Positions 8,794-60,539 of a DNA stretch of 64,000 bases are shown here, in pieces. A program made the position numbers and the translations under genes. Below the pieces are notes generated by a model. That model did not search any database. It was given only the letters and a program-made list of their open reading frames with translations, and had not been told where the DNA came from. Source of the DNA: Microtetraspora niveoalba (GTDB lineage: Bacteria; Actinomycetota; Actinomycetes; Streptosporangiales; Streptosporangiaceae); the NCBI RefSeq assembly GCF_001570405.1, contig NZ_BBYM01000017.1, positions 62,001-126,000 on the forward strand, in the 5' to 3' direction. Numbering within the stretch: position 1 is the stretch's first letter; each line of letters starts with the position of its first letter.

Positions 8794-8837
8794 TCGTACG
8801 CCGCGGGGCGCGCGCTCCGCTTCTCGCGCACGCGGCC

Positions 8838-9392
8838 TCAGCGGACGGGCAGCTCGACGCCCTTGGACGGTGTGACCGAGCCGAACTGCGGCGCGCCGAA
8901 CAGCCGGACCTTCGTGATCGTGGCGTCCTTCGGGACGTCGAACCAGAGGTCGAACTCCGTGCGCACGAAGCTGCCGATCATCATCTCGTCGGGCTGCCGC
9001 TTCATCGCCTGGGTGAAGGAGTCGACGGGGAACTCGCGGCCGTCGGACGCGATGAGAAGCTGGCGTTTGGCGTCGAACTTCGAGTTGGTCCTGTCGATGT
9101 TCTGGACGACGATCCTGACGCTCGCGAACCGGCCCTTGGCGTTCCACTCCGCGTGGCTGCCGATGAGGCTCGACAAGCCGTCCTGGAAGCCGACGAGCCA
9201 GAACCGGGTGGCGCCGTCGGTCACGAGGGAGGGGCGGAGCACGCGCTCACCGGGGCGGGCGGTCTCGGCCGGGAGCAGGTAGGTGTGGGCGGTGGCGGCC
9301 GGCTTCGGCGGCGGGTCCGAGCATCCGGTCACGAGGGCGCCCGCGGTCACGGTGGTGACCGCGAGCAGTACGGTCCGGGCAAACCACGGCAT
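8838..9392 (-). CDS. Hypothetical lipoprotein, DUF4352-like
   Basis: A 184-residue predicted lipoprotein. Residues 1-23 form a signal peptide ending in the lipobox VTGC with Cys24. The mature part has no catalytic motif. Its pattern of beta strands around FASVRIVVQNIDRTNSKFDAKRQ and ending in LWFDVPKD recalls DUF4352 extracellular beta-sandwich proteins, but I would not insist on that family. It is a single gene that converges on the liv operon, with its own leaderless promoter. Function is unknown; a cell-surface role is inferred only from the anchor. Confidence 0.8.
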   Translation of the reverse strand: MPWFARTVLLAVTTVTAGALVTGCSDPPPKPAATAHTYLLPAETARPGERVLRPSLVTDGATRFWLVGFQDGLSSLIGSHAEWNAKGRFASVRIVVQNIDRTNSKFDAKRQLLIASDGREFPVDSFTQAMKRQPDEMMIGSFVRTEFDLWFDVPKDATITKVRLFGAPQFGSVTPSKGVELPVR

Positions 9393-53721: not shown

Positions 53722-54096
53722 TCACATCTTGCGGATGGTCCTGGCCTCCTCGGCGGCGGCGAGCACGGCGTCCAGCGTCGCGCCGCACCCGGCCGCCACG
53801 GCCGCCGAGACGGCGCCCTCGACGAACGGCGCGTCCGCGACCACGACCGAACCGGGCTGCTCCAGCAGCCGCGCCGTCAGCACGGAGCTGCCGAGATCCG
53901 GGATGAGGAGCACGCCGTCCCCCTGGTCCGCCTTCTCGACGGCCGCCGCGACCTTGTCCACGCTCGTGCCGAACTCGCCGTCGTCGGTGCCGCCCGCCGC
54001 CAGGATCGGCACGTCCGTGCCGCAGATGCCCCTGGCCAGCACGACCGTCTCCGCGGCGAGGCCGCTGCTGTGTGAGATGAGAACGATGCCCACCAT
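53722..54096 (-). CDS. dhaM: Dihydroxyacetone kinase phosphotransfer subunit DhaM (single domain)
   Basis: A 124-residue EIIA-Man-like domain with the phospho-acceptor His9 in VLISHSSGLA. GVLLIPDLGSSVLTARLLEQ and VADAPFVEGAVSAAVAAGCG are the DhaM blocks. E. coli DhaM also has HPr and EI-like domains; here only the first is present, as in Gram-positives. It takes a phosphate from HPr of the PTS and passes it to ADP on DhaL. It is the last gene of dhaKLM, 229 bp after dhaL. Confidence 0.9.
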   Translation of the reverse strand: MVGIVLISHSSGLAAETVVLARGICGTDVPILAAGGTDDGEFGTSVDKVAAAVEKADQGDGVLLIPDLGSSVLTARLLEQPGSVVVADAPFVEGAVSAAVAAGCGATLDAVLAAAEEARTIRKM

Positions 54097-54325
54097 TCCG
54101 CTTCCCTGAGAGTCGTCTTCCCCTGAGAGTCGTCGAACGCGTCGCCTGGCGGTCTTCCCGGCCATGTTCCCCTTCCCGGGGCCTGCGCCACCACGACGAG
54201 ATCGGCCTGCCGAGGGCCGATGAACGCACCGCGCCGGGGCATCGCCGCCACACCGAGCGCGACCTTGCACCGGCTCCGGCCGCGTGTGTCCGGGGTGCCC
54301 TCCCCGTGTCCCGTCAGCTTGGCCG

Positions 54326-54970
<645 letters not shown>

Positions 54971-54997
54971 GGGGGACTCCAGAGGGTCGGGTGTCGG

Positions 54998-55990
54998 TCA
55001 ACGGCCCCAGCGCAGCGCCGGCGTCTCCACCGGGGCGTCCCAGAGACGGGCGAGCTCGTCGGTCAGCGCGCACGTCGTCACCGAGAAGCCCTGCATGTCC
55101 AGGCTGGTGACGTAGTCGCCCACCAGGCGGCGCGCGGCGGTCGCGCCCTTCTCCTCCAGGTACGCCGCGACCTCGGCGAAGACGATGTACAGCTCCATGA
55201 GCGGCGTGCCGCCCATCCCGTTGACCATGACCAGGGTCTCGCCGGAGAGGGGCAGGTCGTCGTCGATCGCGTCCATCGCGACGCGGACCAGCTCGCGCGC
55301 CTTCCGGTGCGGGGCGCGGGCCCGGCCGGGCTCCCCGTGGATGCCGATGCCGAGCTCGATCTCCGCCCCGCCGAGCTCGAACGTGGGCATTCCGGCGGCG
55401 GGGGTGGTGCACGCGGTCAGCGCGACGCCGAAGGAGCGGCTGCGCGCGTTGACCTCCCTGCCGACGCGGGCCACCTCGGCCAGCGGCGCCCCGCTCTCGG
55501 CCAGCGCCCCGGCGATCTTCTCGACGAACAGGGCGGCCCCGGTGCCCCTGCGCCCGGCCGTGTAGAGCGAGTCGCGCACGGCCACGTCGTCGTCCACCAG
55601 GACGCCCATCACCTCCACGCCCTCGTCGCCGCTGAGCTCGGCCGCCATCTCGAAGTTGAGCACGTCCCCGGTGTAGTTCTTGACGATGTGCAGCACGCCG
55701 GCGCCGCCGTTCACGCCGGTGGTCGCCTCCACGATCTGGTCGGGGACGGGGCAGGTGAAGATCTCTCCGGGGCAGGCGGCGTCGAGCATGCCGTATCCGA
55801 CGTATCCGCCGTGCAGCGGCTCGTGACCGGATCCGCCGCCGGAGACGAGGCCGACCTTGCCCGGCCGGGGAGCGTCCCGCCTGAAGATGATCTTGTTCTC
55901 GATGTCCACCCGGAGAGAGGGATGCGCGGCCGCCACGCCGCGCAGAGTGTCGGTGACCACCGAGCCGACATCGTTGATGAGCTTCTTCAT
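54998..55990 (-). CDS. dhaK: Dihydroxyacetone kinase subunit DhaK
   Basis: A 330-residue subunit that binds dihydroxyacetone covalently. The substrate histidine is His218 in [42 protein letters not shown] and [24 protein letters not shown] are diagnostic. It is the first gene of dhaKLM, 27 bp ahead of dhaL. The operon would send glycerol-derived dihydroxyacetone into glycolysis at the cost of PEP through the PTS. No DhaR/DhaS regulator gene is adjacent. Confidence 0.95.
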
Positions 55991-56064
55991 GCCGCCGTCC
56001 TTGTGTGGGGGGCCGTCGCCTCCTTTACGCCTGCCCTGTCGCAAGGGACGGCAAGCCTCGAACC

Positions 56065-56130
56065 CGGCCCCCTGCCCCCGGCCCCCGGCCCCCGGCCCCC
56101 GGCCCCCGGCGCCCGGCGCCCGGCGTCCGC
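56065..56130. repeat. Heptamer microsatellite (GGCCCCC)n / (GGCGCCC)n
   Basis: About five copies of GGCCCCC pass into three copies of GGCGCCC. The minus strand has five runs of G5 separated by two bases, so a G-quadruplex is possible. It lies in the divergent gap between dhaK and the PAP2-like gene. Confidence 0.85.
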
Positions 56131-56240
56131 GACGGTGGACCGCCCCGGGGAAGATCGCGATACTGTCGGTGGCCGGTCGAACCCCCGGCGTCCTCGTCCC
56201 CGGTACGCCGCGGCGTCGTTGCGAGCGATGGAGGAAAGCG

Positions 56241-56855
56241 GTGACGACTCCCCTGAAGGCGGCGCGTCCCCCCGCCCGCGAGTCCCGGGCGGCCCGGGTC
56301 GTCACCGAGGTGCTCAACCCCTTCCACGTGGTGATCCCGCTTCCCGTGGCGGTGGGCTGGCACCAGTCCCACCCCGCCGTCACCGGCCTGCTGTGGGGCC
56401 TGTTCGCCGCCGTCTCCGGCGGCGTGCTGCCGTACGCGCTGGTGTTGTGGCGCGTGGCGCGCGGGCGGGCGAGCGACCGGCACATCACCCGCCGCGAGCA
56501 GCGCCTCGTCCCCCTGGCGATCAGCATCGCGCTGGTGCTCGGCGGCCTCGTCGTGCTGGTGGCCGCGGACGCGCCCGACGCCGTTCTGGCGGTGCAGTAC
56601 GCGCTGCTCGGCATGGGCGTGGTCATGCTGCCGATCACCCGCGTGTGGAAGATCTCCTTCCACACGGCCGCCGTCGCGGGGGCCGCGGCCGTCCTCACGG
56701 TGGAGTTCGGCGCGTGGGCGTGGGCCTGCTGGCCGCTCGCGGCGCTGGCCGGCTGGTCGCGGATCGTCCTGCGCGACCACACGCCCGCGCAGGTCGTCGC
56801 GGGCGCGGTCGCCGGCGCCGCCGTCTGCTGGCCCGTCTACGCCCTGATCGGCTGA
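56241..56855 (+). CDS. PAP2-like membrane protein
   Basis: A 204-residue protein with about five hydrophobic segments. Lys137 and His141 in [11 protein letters not shown] and Arg174 and His180 in [18 protein letters not shown] match the phosphatase motifs of PAP2 lipid phosphatases in position. The final motif normally ends with Asp but has Gln184, and no PSGH motif is complete, so activity is uncertain. GTG 56241 follows GGAGGA by five bases. It stands alone, in front of the cyclase operon. Confidence 0.8.
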
Positions 56856-56947: not shown

Positions 56948-57721
56948 ATGTCGGTGTTGCGGGATCTCATGGAGGGCATCAGAGGCGGCGGGATCGAGGT
57001 GGTCGACCTCACCGCGCCGCTGTCGGACACGACGCCGATCCTGATGCTGCCCGAGCCGTTCGGCAACACCGTCCCGTTCGGCCTCCACGAGATCAGCAGG
57101 TACGACGACCGCGGGCCCGCGTGGTACTGGAACAACATCACGACGGGCGAGCACACCGGCACCCACTTCGACGCCCCGATCCACTGGGTCACCGCGCGGG
57201 ACGGCGAGGACGTCGCGCAGGTCGCCCCCGCCCGGCTGCTCGCCCCCGCCGTCGTCCTCGACTTCACCGCCGAGGCCGCGAAGGACCCCGACTTCCTGCT
57301 GGAGGTCGAGCACGTCACCGCCTGGGAGGAGGAACACGGCCCGCTGCCCGACGGAGGCTGGCTCCTCTACCGCACCGGCTGGGACGCCCGCGCGCACGAC
57401 CAGGAGAGCATCCTCAACGCCGACGAGAACGGCCCGCACACCCCCGGCATCTCCGCGGACTGCGCCCGCCACCTCGCCGAGCGCACGCCGATCATCGGGC
57501 TGGGCGTGGAGACCGTCGGCACGGACGCCGGGGCGGCGCACTCCTTCGACCCGCCGTTCCCCTGCCACTCGTTCCTGCTCGGGGCGGGCAAGTACGGCCT
57601 GACCCAGCTCCGCAACCTCGACCGGCTGCCGCCCACCGGAGCGGTCGTCGTCGCTGGCCCCCTCCCGATCGTCGGCGGCTCCGGCAGCCCGGCCCGCGTC
57701 CTCGCCCTGGTGGAGCGGTGA
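56948..57721 (+). CDS. Cyclase-family metal hydrolase (PF04199)
   Basis: A 257-residue enzyme of the kynurenine formamidase/isatin hydrolase superfamily. The metal motif HxGTHxDxPxH is complete: His69, His73, Asp75 and His79 in EHTGTHFDAPIHW. Further conserved parts are VVDLTAPLSDTTPI and LLYRTGWD. Members hydrolyse N-formylkynurenine, cyclic amides such as isatin, or related small rings; this one cannot be placed exactly. ATG 56948 has GGGAGGCGGG upstream. It overlaps the next gene by four bases, so the two enzymes likely act in one pathway. Confidence 0.9.
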   Translation: MSVLRDLMEGIRGGGIEVVDLTAPLSDTTPILMLPEPFGNTVPFGLHEISRYDDRGPAWYWNNITTGEHTGTHFDAPIHWVTARDGEDVAQVAPARLLAPAVVLDFTAEAAKDPDFLLEVEHVTAWEEEHGPLPDGGWLLYRTGWDARAHDQESILNADENGPHTPGISADCARHLAERTPIIGLGVETVGTDAGAAHSFDPPFPCHSFLLGAGKYGLTQLRNLDRLPPTGAVVVAGPLPIVGGSGSPARVLALVER

Positions 57722-59526
57722 ACGTCGCCGAGGCCGTGGGCGCGGTCCTCGCCTCGCTCGGAGTCGACACCGCCTTCGGCGTCGTCGGCAGCGGCAACTT
57801 CCACGTGACCAACTCCCTCACCGCGCACGGCGTGCGCTTCGTCGCCGCCCGCCACGAAGGCGGCGCGGCCACCATGGCCGACGCGTACGCGCGGATGAGC
57901 GGCACCGTGGCGGTGCTCAGCGTCCACCAGGGACCGGGCCTCACCAACGCGCTCACCGGGGTCACCGAGGCCGCCAAGAGCCGCACGCCGCTGCTGGTGC
58001 TGGCCGGCGAGGCCACCGCGCCGGGCTCGAACTTCCGGATCGACCAGCCGGGCCTGGCGTCGGCCGTGGGCGCGCTCGCCGCCCGGGTCGGCTCCGCCGA
58101 GACCGTCGTCGAGGACACGGTGCTGGCCTTCCTCACCGCGCTGCTCGGCCGCCGCACCGTCCTGCTCAACCTGCCCCTCGACGTGCAGGAGGCGGTCCTG
58201 CCCGACGATGCCGTGCAGGCCGTACGCGAGCTGCGGTCGAGCCGGATCAGCGACGTGGGGGAGCAGGGGAGCCGCGCCTGGGCCGCCGTACGCGACCTGC
58301 GGGACCGGGCGCGGCGCGACCTGGCGGAGGATCTCGGCGAGCCCGCCGACCTGGCTCCGGCCGACTCCGCCGTGTCGGTCCCGGAGGGGCCGCTCCCGGG
58401 CGGGCCGGAGGCGACGCCGCCCGGACCGGCCCCGGCCGACTCCGTCAGCGAGCTGACCCGGCTGCTCGCCCGCGCGGAACGGCCGGTCTTCATCGCCGGC
58501 AGGGGAGCGCGCGGCGCGCGCCGGGAGATCGAGGCGCTCGCCGACCGGTCGGGCGCGCTGCTCGCGACGTCGGCCGTCGCGCGCGGCCTGTTCCGCGGCA
58601 GCCGGTGGGACCTCGACGTGAGCGGCGGCTTCGCCTCGCCGCCCGCCGCCGAGCTGATCCGCGACGCCGACCTGATCGTGGCCTGGGGCTGCGCGCTGAA
58701 CATGTGGACCACCCGGCACGGCACGCTGGTCGGCCCGGACGCCACCGTGGTACAGGTCGACCTCGACCCGGACGCCGTCGGCGCGCACCGCCCGGTCCAC
58801 CTCGGCGTGATCGGCGACGCGGCCGAGACCGCGCGTGCCGTGACCCTGGCCCTCGGCGCGCCCCGCGACGGGTACCGCACCGCCGAGTCGGCCGCGCGGA
58901 TCGCGGCGGGGATCCGCTGGCGGGACATCCCGTACGAGGACCGGAGCGGGGACGGGCGCATCGACCCGCGCACGCTCACGATCGAGCTGGACGACCTGCT
59001 GCCTGCCGAGCGGATCGTCTCCGTCGATTCCGGGAACTTCATGGGATATCCGTCGATGTTCCTGTCGGTGCCGGACGAGAACGGCTTCTGCTTCACGCAG
59101 GCGTTCCAGTCGATCGGGCTCGGCCTGGCCACCGCGATCGGCGCGGCGCTCGCCCGGCCCGACCGGCTGCCCGTGGCCGCGCTCGGCGACGGCGGCGCGT
59201 TGATGGGCGTCGCCGAGCTGGAGACGGTGGTGCGGCTCGGCCTGCCGATGATCGTCGTGGTCTACGACGACGAGGCGTACGGCGCGGAGGTCCACCACTT
59301 CGGACCGGACGGCCACGCGCTCGACACCGTCACCTTCCCGCCCGTCGACATCGCGGCCATCGCCCGCGGTTTCGGCTGCGAGGCGGTGACCGTACGCGAG
59401 CGGGCCGATCTGTCGGGGGTCGCCGAGTGGCTGAAGGGGCCGCGCGAGACACCCCTGGTCGTCCAGGCGAAGGTCACCGCCGACCGGGGCGCGTGGTGGC
59501 TGGAGGAGGCGTTCCGCGCCCACTGA
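57718..59526 (+). CDS. Thiamine-diphosphate-dependent enzyme, benzoylformate decarboxylase/acetolactate synthase-like
   Basis: A 602-residue TPP enzyme in three domains: PYR domain with the catalytic Glu47 in AARHEGGAATMADAYAR, a central domain near 230-370, and the PP domain with ALGDGGALMGVAELETVVRLGLPMIVVVYDDEAYG as cofactor motif. The last motif has Asp and Glu where Asn is usual in acetolactate synthases, so it is probably a decarboxylase or lyase of another 2-keto acid. A low-complexity Pro/Ala insert (about 205-240) splits the domains. GTG 57718 overlaps the cyclase stop. Confidence 0.9.
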   Translation: MNVAEAVGAVLASLGVDTAFGVVGSGNFHVTNSLTAHGVRFVAARHEGGAATMADAYARMSGTVAVLSVHQGPGLTNALTGVTEAAKSRTPLLVLAGEATAPGSNFRIDQPGLASAVGALAARVGSAETVVEDTVLAFLTALLGRRTVLLNLPLDVQEAVLPDDAVQAVRELRSSRISDVGEQGSRAWAAVRDLRDRARRDLAEDLGEPADLAPADSAVSVPEGPLPGGPEATPPGPAPADSVSELTRLLARAERPVFIAGRGARGARREIEALADRSGALLATSAVARGLFRGSRWDLDVSGGFASPPAAELIRDADLIVAWGCALNMWTTRHGTLVGPDATVVQVDLDPDAVGAHRPVHLGVIGDAAETARAVTLALGAPRDGYRTAESAARIAAGIRWRDIPYEDRSGDGRIDPRTLTIELDDLLPAERIVSVDSGNFMGYPSMFLSVPDENGFCFTQAFQSIGLGLATAIGAALARPDRLPVAALGDGGALMGVAELETVVRLGLPMIVVVYDDEAYGAEVHHFGPDGHALDTVTFPPVDIAAIARGFGCEAVTVRERADLSGVAEWLKGPRETPLVVQAKVTADRGAWWLEEAFRAH

Positions 59527-59696: not shown

Positions 59697-60539
59697 ATGG
59701 CTGAGATCGTGTATCCCCCGGTGATCCGGAGCGCGCTGGTGCTCTTCAAGGCGCTGGATCTCAAGATCCGCATCGAGGGCGCCGAACGTGTGCCCAGGAC
59801 GGGCGGGGCGGTGCTCGTCAGCAACCATGTGAGCTACCTCGACTTCATCTTCGCGGGGCTGGCCGCCTGGCCGTCCCGGCGTCTCGTCCGGTTCATGGCG
59901 AAGAAGGAGGTCTTCGACAACCCGGTGGCCGGGCCGCTGATGCGCGGCATGCACCACATCCCCGTGGACCGCTCCGCCGGGGCCGGGGCGTACGGCGCGG
60001 CCGTGCGCGCGCTGAAGGACGGCGAGATCGTCGGGAACTTCGCCGAGGCCACGATCAGCCGCTCGTTCACCGTCAAGGAGATCAAGAGCGGCCCGATCAG
60101 GATGGCCGCCGACGCGGGCGTCCCGCTCATCCCGGTCGCGGTGTGGGGGCCGCACCGGCTGTGGACCAAGGGCCGCCCGCGCAGGCTCCTGCAGCGGCAC
60201 GTGCCCGTCACGATCCTGGTCGGCGAGCCCATGCTCCCGGAGCCCGCCCCGCCCCTCGCCGACCCGGGGTACGCCGAGCCGGCCGCGCCCCTCGCCGAGC
60301 CGGGGCAGCCCGAGCCGGGCGCGCGGCCGACCGACCTTGCCGGGCTGAACGCCGAGCTCCGGCGGAGGATGGCGGAGCTGCTCGACCGGGCGCAGCGGAC
60401 CTACCCGGAGATCCCGCCGGGCGTCTGGTGGCAGCCCGCCCACCTCGGTGGCACCGCCCCCACCCCGGAGGAGGCCGCCGTCATGGACTCCCCCCGCAAG
60501 GCCCGCTCCGCCGGGCCGGGCTCCGGCGAGGTGTCCTAG
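59697..60539 (+). CDS. 1-acylglycerol-3-phosphate acyltransferase (PlsC-like)
   Basis: A 280-residue acyltransferase. The catalytic His44 and Asp49 are in SNHVSYLDF, and MAKKEVFDNPVAGPLMRGMHHIPVDRS and GNFAEATISRSF match the later PlsC blocks, with EAT in place of the usual EGT. A Pro/Glu/Ala-rich insert of about 27 residues near 185 is low-complexity, as is the C-terminal tail. It probably adds the second acyl chain in phospholipid or triacylglycerol synthesis. The start is fixed by the leaderless promoter. Its TAG overlaps the stop of a broken convergent gene. Confidence 0.88.
   Translation: MAEIVYPPVIRSALVLFKALDLKIRIEGAERVPRTGGAVLVSNHVSYLDFIFAGLAAWPSRRLVRFMAKKEVFDNPVAGPLMRGMHHIPVDRSAGAGAYGAAVRALKDGEIVGNFAEATISRSFTVKEIKSGPIRMAADAGVPLIPVAVWGPHRLWTKGRPRRLLQRHVPVTILVGEPMLPEPAPPLADPGYAEPAAPLAEPGQPEPGARPTDLAGLNAELRRRMAELLDRAQRTYPEIPPGVWWQPAHLGGTAPTPEEAAVMDSPRKARSAGPGSGEVS

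Follow-up and report, generated by a model that had tools for sequence, protein, structure and literature searches.

The window, a 64,000-nucleotide stretch of the Microtetraspora niveoalba contig NZ_BBYM01000017.1 (part of contig 17 in a genome of 8.47 Mb), contains two overlapping genes at positions 56948–59526 that encode a metal-dependent hydrolase of family PF04199 and a thiamine diphosphate (ThDP)-dependent enzyme. Conservation of this pair is far beyond chance, and its hydrolase is a close relative of the isatin hydrolases. The reading preferred here, held with moderate confidence, is that the hydrolase opens the ring of isatin, or of a closely related indoledione, and that the ThDP enzyme then decarboxylates the resulting isatinate towards anthranilate. 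We infer the metal, the substrate, the product and the physiological role of the pair.

Both genes are on the plus strand. The hydrolase gene begins with ATG at 56948 and its stop codon ends at 57721, giving a product of 257 amino acids, while the ThDP gene begins with GTG at 57718 and its stop codon ends at 59526, giving a product of 602 amino acids. As the two genes overlap, they are probably translated together. The extent of the pair in a preliminary description of the locus proved exact, and the GTGA overlap was confirmed at 57718–57721. The hydrolase scores 133.7 bits against the PF04199 gathering cut-off of 23.1, and the TPP_enzyme_N, _M and _C domains all score above their gathering cut-offs in the ThDP protein. 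Apart from this protein, the genome's best ThDP match has 29% identity over a partial length. A simple scan at the locus found no sigma-70 promoter. The pair and the main features of its hydrolase are as follows.

56948..57721, plus strand: PF04199 metal-dependent hydrolase, sister clade of the isatin hydrolases, 257 amino acids (Pfam, profile search, model, tree)
57152..57184, plus strand: metal/catalytic motif HTGTHFDAPIH, residues 69–79 (sequence; ligand roles from PMC6117287)
57596..57607, plus strand: GLTQ, residues 217–220, at the GLQC/GLAS signature position of isatin hydrolases (alignment; signature from PMC6117287)
57718..57721, plus strand: GTGA overlap, ThDP start codon shared with the hydrolase stop (gene coordinates)
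57718..59526, plus strand: ThDP-dependent enzyme, 602 amino acids, proposed 2-aminobenzoylformate (isatinate) decarboxylase (TPP_enzyme domains, alignment)

Conservation of the gene pair

Named genomes were queried with the ThDP family alone, and 80 of at least 576 confirmed loci were kept; for pair conservation, the genes were queried one at a time. Among the matches listed, the nearest named loci belong to Microtetraspora. The hydrolase gene is adjacent to the ThDP gene and on the same strand in 78 of the 80 named loci, upstream in 77 and downstream in one (L126). In L079, one of the two exceptions, an internal part of the hydrolase is missing in frame; in the other, L156, the ThDP match starts 83 bases from the contig end. 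The kept loci come from Streptosporangiaceae, Streptomyces, Nonomuraea, Kribbella, Amycolatopsis, Pseudonocardia, Nocardia, Blastococcus and Georgenia, and from metagenome-assembled genomes carrying the labels Bacillota and Acidimicrobiia (as given). The L079 site lies at 8807–8968 in Microtetraspora sp. NBRC 16547, the same place as G001:C2:382027–382185. About 200 codons of the hydrolase reading frame are lost in frame there, the remnant of some 53 amino acids still overlaps the ThDP start, and the ThDP gene is open; the loss could be real or an assembly fault.

Among 60 related genomes (the window genome included), hydrolase genes were counted at 63% identity or more, with weaker matches and one 51-residue fragment left out. 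This gave 32 hydrolase genes, two of them partial, in 29 genomes, and the ThDP gene adjoins 30 of the 32. The remaining two are in G014, where the hydrolase lies 460 bases from a contig end and the ThDP gene is on another contig, and in G027, which has a second hydrolase copy with no ThDP partner.

A wider sample was drawn evenly across the phylum (396 genomes), using E ≤1e-60 for the hydrolase and E ≤1e-70 for the C-terminal 362 residues of the ThDP protein. Besides the window genome, 33 genomes have the hydrolase (34 genes) and 28 have a ThDP match. The pair is adjacent in 24 of these 28, with the hydrolase gene first in 14 and the order reversed, ThDP gene first, in 10. Adjacency is absent in G355 (separate contigs), in G303 (43% identity), in G419 (49%) and in G114, where the match lies 100 bases from the contig end. 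G355 is also one of nine genomes in which a total of ten hydrolase genes are without an adjacent partner. Two Deinococcus strains and Rhodococcus erythropolis R138 carry the pair as well, in each case on a plasmid. Since adjacency is kept through the reversal of gene order, it is strong evidence of a functional link, and the co-occurrence in other genomes that the preliminary description had left to be checked is borne out by all three samples. A constant third gene was sought by a rough gene call and rejected: the widest neighbour family among the 80 loci covers seven genus labels, all of the Streptosporangiaceae group. Fifteen chosen neighbour proteins from other genera showed no common theme.

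The hydrolase and its relation to isatin hydrolases

Among proteins of solved structure, the four that match the hydrolase best are all isatin hydrolases (E 7e-84 to 8e-73). An AlphaFold2 model built from 36 sequences has a mean pLDDT (model confidence) of 75, is poor at residues 30–69, and superposes on 5nna and 5nmp with Z 29.6. Isatin hydrolases A and B, from Labrenzia aggregata (5nna, 5nnb, 4j0n) and Ralstonia solanacearum (5nmp), have the same fold (Z 29 to 30) and share 43–50% identity with the window hydrolase in structural alignments. Passages of PMC6117287 name His69, His73 and Asp75 as the metal ligands of isatin hydrolase and His79, His207 and Asp193 as its proton-transfer residues, together with a pocket motif WxW. 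All three features are common to the window hydrolase. The complete HxGTHxDxPxH motif described earlier is present as HTGTHFDAPIH at residues 69–79, in agreement with the isatin hydrolase pattern HxG[T/A]HxDxPxH, and the aromatic motif, WxW or FxW in isatin hydrolases, is formed by W59 and W61. Across 36 aligned hydrolase rows, the metal ligands, H79, D193, H207 and W59 are invariant (36/36) and W61 is kept in at least 90%; a few relatives have WxH. By analogy, the hydrolase would bind one divalent metal, Mn2+, via His69, His73 and Asp75, activate water with His79, His207 and Asp193, and hydrolyse the lactam ring of isatin, or of a closely related indole-2,3-dione, to give isatinate (2-aminobenzoylformate).

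Unlike isatin hydrolases A and B, the window hydrolase has GLTQ at the signature position, belongs to a separate clade and is coupled to a ThDP gene. The signature GLQC/GLAS has been tied to isatin hydrolase activity by Sommer et al. 2018 (in passages of PMC6117287), where one of the positions altered here is Gln219 of LaIHA, a partial metal ligand, and the other is linked to proton flow. The signature was tabulated for 124 rows, in which some genomes occur twice, two PDB sequences are included and hydrolase matches shorter than 200 amino acids are left out. A ThDP match is present in the locus for 111 rows, and 110 of these have GLTQ, GLAQ, GVTQ, GITQ, GITS or GLTS. The sole GLQC row among the 111 is Agrobacterium pusense, in which a 59%-identical ThDP relative lies 4.3 kb from the hydrolase on the opposite strand. 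Three of the 13 rows without a ThDP match are GLQC, two of these being the PDB sequences. In a midpoint-rooted tree of 130 hydrolase sequences, ten proteins of the GLQC/GLAS side (including L199, whose signature is printed incompletely) form one clade with support 1.0, and the other 120 fall outside it. The window hydrolase, with its GLTQ, therefore belongs to a clade that is sister to the tested isatin hydrolases and is not a proven member of theirs, and the GLTQ change may signal a different substrate. Isatin, suggested earlier as a substrate, stays conjectural. A kynurenine formamidase label was rejected, as the protein scores 26.9 bits against the TIGR03035 cut-off of 223.05.

The thiamine diphosphate-dependent enzyme

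The active site of the ThDP enzyme was compared with that of Pseudomonas putida benzoylformate decarboxylase (1bfd) in an alignment of 42 family rows, namely the window protein and 41 chosen from the 80 loci. The features located in this way are all on the plus strand.

57790..57792, plus strand: Ser25, aligned with benzoylformate decarboxylase Ser26, invariant in 42 rows (alignment)
57856..57858, plus strand: Glu47, cofactor glutamate, invariant in 42 rows (alignment)
57925..57927, plus strand: His70, aligned with benzoylformate decarboxylase His70, invariant in 42 rows (alignment)
59188..59271, plus strand: ThDP/metal segment from Asp491 (of GDGG) to Asp518 (alignment)
59284..59301, plus strand: AEVHHF, residues 523–528, with His527 aligned with Phe464 of benzoylformate decarboxylase (alignment; Phe464 given as a pocket residue in passages of PMC6028569)

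Both proteins are three-domain ThDP enzymes, and Ser26, Glu47, His70, Tyr458 and Ala460 of the decarboxylase are kept in 42 of 42 rows. Asp518, which is likewise invariant (42/42), takes the place of Asn455, which we take to be a metal ligand of the decarboxylase. The two enzymes also differ at Asn27 and His527 (Glu28 and Phe464 in the decarboxylase), and the window protein is far below the NCBIfam cut-off for that enzyme (equivalog NF005485), with 136.3 bits against 493. The earlier term "benzoylformate-decarboxylase-like" therefore holds for three active-site residues and fails for overall similarity. In benzoylformate decarboxylase, Ser26, His70 and His281 hydrogen-bond the substrate, according to passages of PMC6028569. 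The same passages report that several substitutions at these residues cost little activity, so the residue match is suggestive only.

The ThDP protein matches 53 NCBIfam families, and none of the best 25 reaches its cut-off; the sulfoacetaldehyde acetyltransferase family gives 202 of 676 bits, and the 2-hydroxyacyl-CoA lyase equivalog NF058623 gives 147.1 bits against 600. An acetolactate synthase label was rejected at 181.3 bits against the TIGR00118 cut-off of 538.35. The nearest solved sequences are BbmA (a ThDP-dependent HKA synthase, 8x3x), an actinobacterial 2-hydroxyacyl-CoA lyase (7pt1) and pyruvate oxidase; the first two, at E ~1e-56 by profile, have Gly and Thr in the printed alignments where the family of the window protein has Ser25 and His70. 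The best superpositions of the structural model are on glyoxylate carboligase (Z 37.4), acetohydroxyacid synthase (35.9) and pyruvate oxidase (35.2), with a root-mean-square deviation (rmsd) of ~12 that perhaps results from a domain shift in the model. Benzoylformate decarboxylase is absent from the best 50 structural rows, which excludes nothing.

These superpositions could point to an enzyme of acetolactate synthase or oxidase type whose adjacency to the hydrolase stems from another pathway, in line with the lack of anthranilate-pathway neighbours at most loci. Such an assignment is improbable, given the TIGR00118 score and the absence of any passing family among the best 25, the presence of Ser25 and His70 as in benzoylformate decarboxylase, the isatin-hydrolase kinship of the partner and the survival of adjacency in reversed order.

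If the enzyme is instead the preferred isatinate decarboxylase, the cofactor ylide would add to the keto group and CO2 would be expelled. As in benzoylformate decarboxylase, the serine (Ser25) would sit close to the carboxylate and the histidine (His70) would belong to the oxyanion hole. The reaction would give 2-aminobenzaldehyde unless the carbanion is oxidised, in which case the product would be anthranilate. A nine-gene run in Deinococcus that contains the pair and a coenzyme A (CoA) ligase has no annotated aldehyde dehydrogenase, which makes it conceivable that the ThDP enzyme may yield anthranilate directly by oxidative decarboxylation; one aldehyde dehydrogenase is annotated near the Rhodococcus pair.

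The linker between the N-terminal and central domains of the ThDP protein (window 58189–58437) is long and highly variable among orthologues, and includes a low-confidence stretch of the model at residues 208–230. Related ThDP proteins with no annotated cyclase nearby are found at three loci (L201, L202 and L164), which belong to Thermomicrobium, with a ligase and enoyl-CoA hydratases, to a Streptomyces plasmid and to Bosea, with a TRAP transporter; they suggest a wider ThDP family.

Metabolic setting and proposed pathway

The product of the preferred route would enter anthranilate metabolism, and in some of the lineages with the 2-aminobenzoyl-CoA pathway the pair adjoins the genes of that pathway. 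One such run, with all its genes on a single strand, is that of Deinococcus psychrotolerans, which starts with genes for a bifunctional salicylyl-CoA 5-hydroxylase/oxidoreductase, SDR, MarR and enoyl-CoA hydratase, and continues with acyl-CoA dehydrogenase, AMP ligase, the hydrolase, the ThDP enzyme (4-base overlap) and RidA. The protein of the first gene, a 2-aminobenzoyl-CoA-type monooxygenase, scores above the NF006101 cut-off, and its reductase half resembles NamA. The AMP ligase shares 53% identity with a ligase encoded on pAL1 of Arthrobacter Rue61a, where the following gene has the same annotation as the Deinococcus monooxygenase. The pAL1 ligase matched here is presumably the gene assayed as an anthranilate-CoA ligase in passages of PMC3534580. 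Known 2-aminobenzoyl-CoA clusters (Arthrobacter Rue61a pAL1; Azoarcus evansii) share with some pair loci the ligase, monooxygenase/reductase and RidA, whereas no hydrolase or ThDP gene is annotated within the 17.6 kb stretch of pAL1. Homologues of the monooxygenase are next to the pair at L069, L074, L177, L178, L182, L185 and L187, while L181 has only the ligase there, and such neighbours recur in several actinobacterial families. The pair of R. erythropolis R138 is accompanied by LysR, ABC transporter, thiolase, acyl-CoA ligase and aldehyde dehydrogenase genes.

The monooxygenase was counted at E 1e-100 in the 36 phylum-draw genomes with a hydrolase or ThDP match (window genome included, G303 left out). 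One match is present in 19 genomes and none in 17. In 8 of the 19 the monooxygenase and the hydrolase are no more than 12 kb apart, compared with 0.12 expected. Six of these eight have the pair (G293, G097, G218, G334, G131 and G282), and the other two, G089 and G137, have no ThDP match. These eight genomes span five of ten families, with binomial values of 2e-13 by genome and 3e-9 by family that are only indicative because of kinship among the genomes.

This association could also be explained if the pair acted after the 2-aminobenzoyl-CoA monooxygenase/reductase, with the hydrolase, like dihydrophloroglucinol cyclohydrolase, cleaving a C–C bond of an alicyclic intermediate by retro-Claisen chemistry and the ThDP enzyme handling a dione. 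A PF04199 "cyclase" with C–C hydrolase activity is known (passages of PMC10470551), and the pair does adjoin genes of this pathway in some lineages. It is nevertheless the most improbable of the alternatives, as the window hydrolase is close to isatin hydrolases, the Clostridium C–C enzyme is 25% identical to one of them (passages of PMC10470551), and the pAL1 stretch has ligase, monooxygenase and RidA without annotated genes of the pair. The lack of annotated pair genes on this stretch, together with the 17 of 36 genomes without the monooxygenase, the window genome included, implies that the pair is not simply a part of the lower pathway.

On the indole side, a related GLQC hydrolase in Azospirillum lies within an indole/styrene monooxygenase cluster, and a related GLAS hydrolase in Paracoccus adjoins an indolepyruvate oxidoreductase. 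The GLTS hydrolase of Tsukamurella adjoins an indolepyruvate oxidoreductase and an aminobenzoyl-CoA-type monooxygenase, without a ThDP gene. In Ruegeria and Roseibium, related GLQC hydrolases occur with a ring-hydroxylating dioxygenase, a ligase and a thiolase. Among the 60 relatives, the hydrolase is present in six of seven genomes whose indole monooxygenase has at least 56% identity and in 23 of the 53 others (p 0.04, with the cut chosen post hoc). No weight is given to this link between indole monooxygenase and hydrolase among the relatives. The window genome has an indole/styrene-type two-component monooxygenase on contig 18 (G000:C18:83467–86341; L189 7468–10342). It contains a Smoa_sbd domain, is 63% identical to that of Azospirillum, and is adjoined by a flavin reductase gene and a divergent AraC gene.

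Isatin and isatinate have been described since 1995 as intermediates to anthranilate in indole-3-acetate breakdown (Jensen et al., cited in passages of PMC8383072), and the same passages report intermediates of this route for Bradyrhizobium japonicum and Pseudomonas LY1. In passages of a 2018 review (PMC6221969), whether isatin takes part in indole degradation is listed as unanswered, and the isatin hydrolase gene is considered worth functional identification. According to passages of PMC12538310, an enzymatic route from indole to anthranilate bypasses isatin, which may be a dead end. No enzyme is named for the conversion of isatinate to anthranilate in the literature searched, most subscription papers being outside the search, so that an earlier description is possible. 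A PF04199 cyclase also belongs to the indole cluster of Providencia rettgeri (passages of PMC9871250).

Several observations weigh against isatin as the substrate or isatinate decarboxylation as the second step. The window hydrolase has GLTQ where the signature is GLQC/GLAS, its clade stands outside the tested isatin hydrolases in the tree, and the product assigned to the Providencia cyclase in passages of PMC9871250 is N-formylanthranilate, an isomer of isatinate. In the phylum draw, eight genomes carry nine hydrolase genes between them and give no ThDP match at the E 1e-70 threshold. At E 1e-40, the threshold of the search itself, the hydrolase is present in 9 of 20 relatives with the indole monooxygenase and 20 of 40 without it, so there is no monooxygenase link among the 60. 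In the ThDP family, Glu28 and Phe464 of benzoylformate decarboxylase are replaced by Asn27 and His527, the position of its His281 has no His (in a stretch that aligns poorly), and the small cost of substitutions in the decarboxylase has been mentioned. The ThDP model fits many ThDP classes alike (Z 33 to 37) and does not discriminate the kind of reaction. Pathway genes adjoin neither the window pair nor the pair at most loci: among 100 loci (L058–L157, several genomes twice) the 2-aminobenzoyl-CoA monooxygenase occurs only in L069, its duplicate L106 and L074, and a second Deinococcus pair is without neighbours of this pathway. The window genome has no match to that monooxygenase at E 1e-100, and its ligase matches are only 30–33%.

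An unlikely but more serious alternative is that the hydrolase opens another indole-derived amide, of dioxindole or N-formyl-2-aminobenzoyl type, and that the ThDP enzyme acts on the product, perhaps as a CoA ester; this variant would perhaps use 2-hydroxyacyl-CoA lyase chemistry. It would accommodate the Providencia product, GLTQ as a sign of another substrate, the clustering of related hydrolases with ring-hydroxylating dioxygenase, AMP ligase and thiolase genes, and the 2-hydroxyacyl-CoA lyase among the nearest solved ThDP enzymes. The kynurenine formamidase model gives only 26.9 of 223 bits, however, with no I(L/I)E motif at the signature place, the NF058623 lyase score is 147 of 600 bits, and six proteobacterial stretches (L195–L200) have no match to the ThDP protein, while Agrobacterium pusense has one. 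The isatin reading is slightly less probable, and this alternative slightly more so, in view of the Providencia product and the loss of the monooxygenase link at the looser threshold.

The two-step logic of the preliminary description is partly supported, by the anthranilate-pathway neighbours in some distant lineages and by the Ser, Glu and His residues shared with benzoylformate decarboxylase; the absence of GLQC/GLAS counts against it. Isatin hydrolysis followed by decarboxylation remains the preferred reading, and the pair is a testable candidate for the step from isatinate to anthranilate. A broader claim, that the pair is a portable isatin-to-anthranilate module of Actinomycetota and of Deinococcus and Rhodococcus plasmids, with the ThDP enzyme as the missing isatinate enzyme of indole and indole-3-acetate breakdown, is doubtful. 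At least 576 loci encode relatives, and the pair provides a lead for annotating many pairs of "cyclase family protein" and "thiamine pyrophosphate-binding protein".

In the window, the pair is preceded by a PAP2-family gene that ends at 56855 and followed by an acyltransferase gene that starts at 59697. The earlier remark that no transporter or regulator accompanies the pair agrees with these neighbours and does not extend to R. erythropolis R138, where LysR and ABC transporter genes adjoin. Dihydroxyacetone kinase genes (Dak1, Dak2 and EIIA-man domains) also adjoin the pair at 53725–56782 on the minus strand. Of the 21 loci in the first set, which come from close relatives, 9 have the Dak1 family near the pair, a recurrence taken as synteny.

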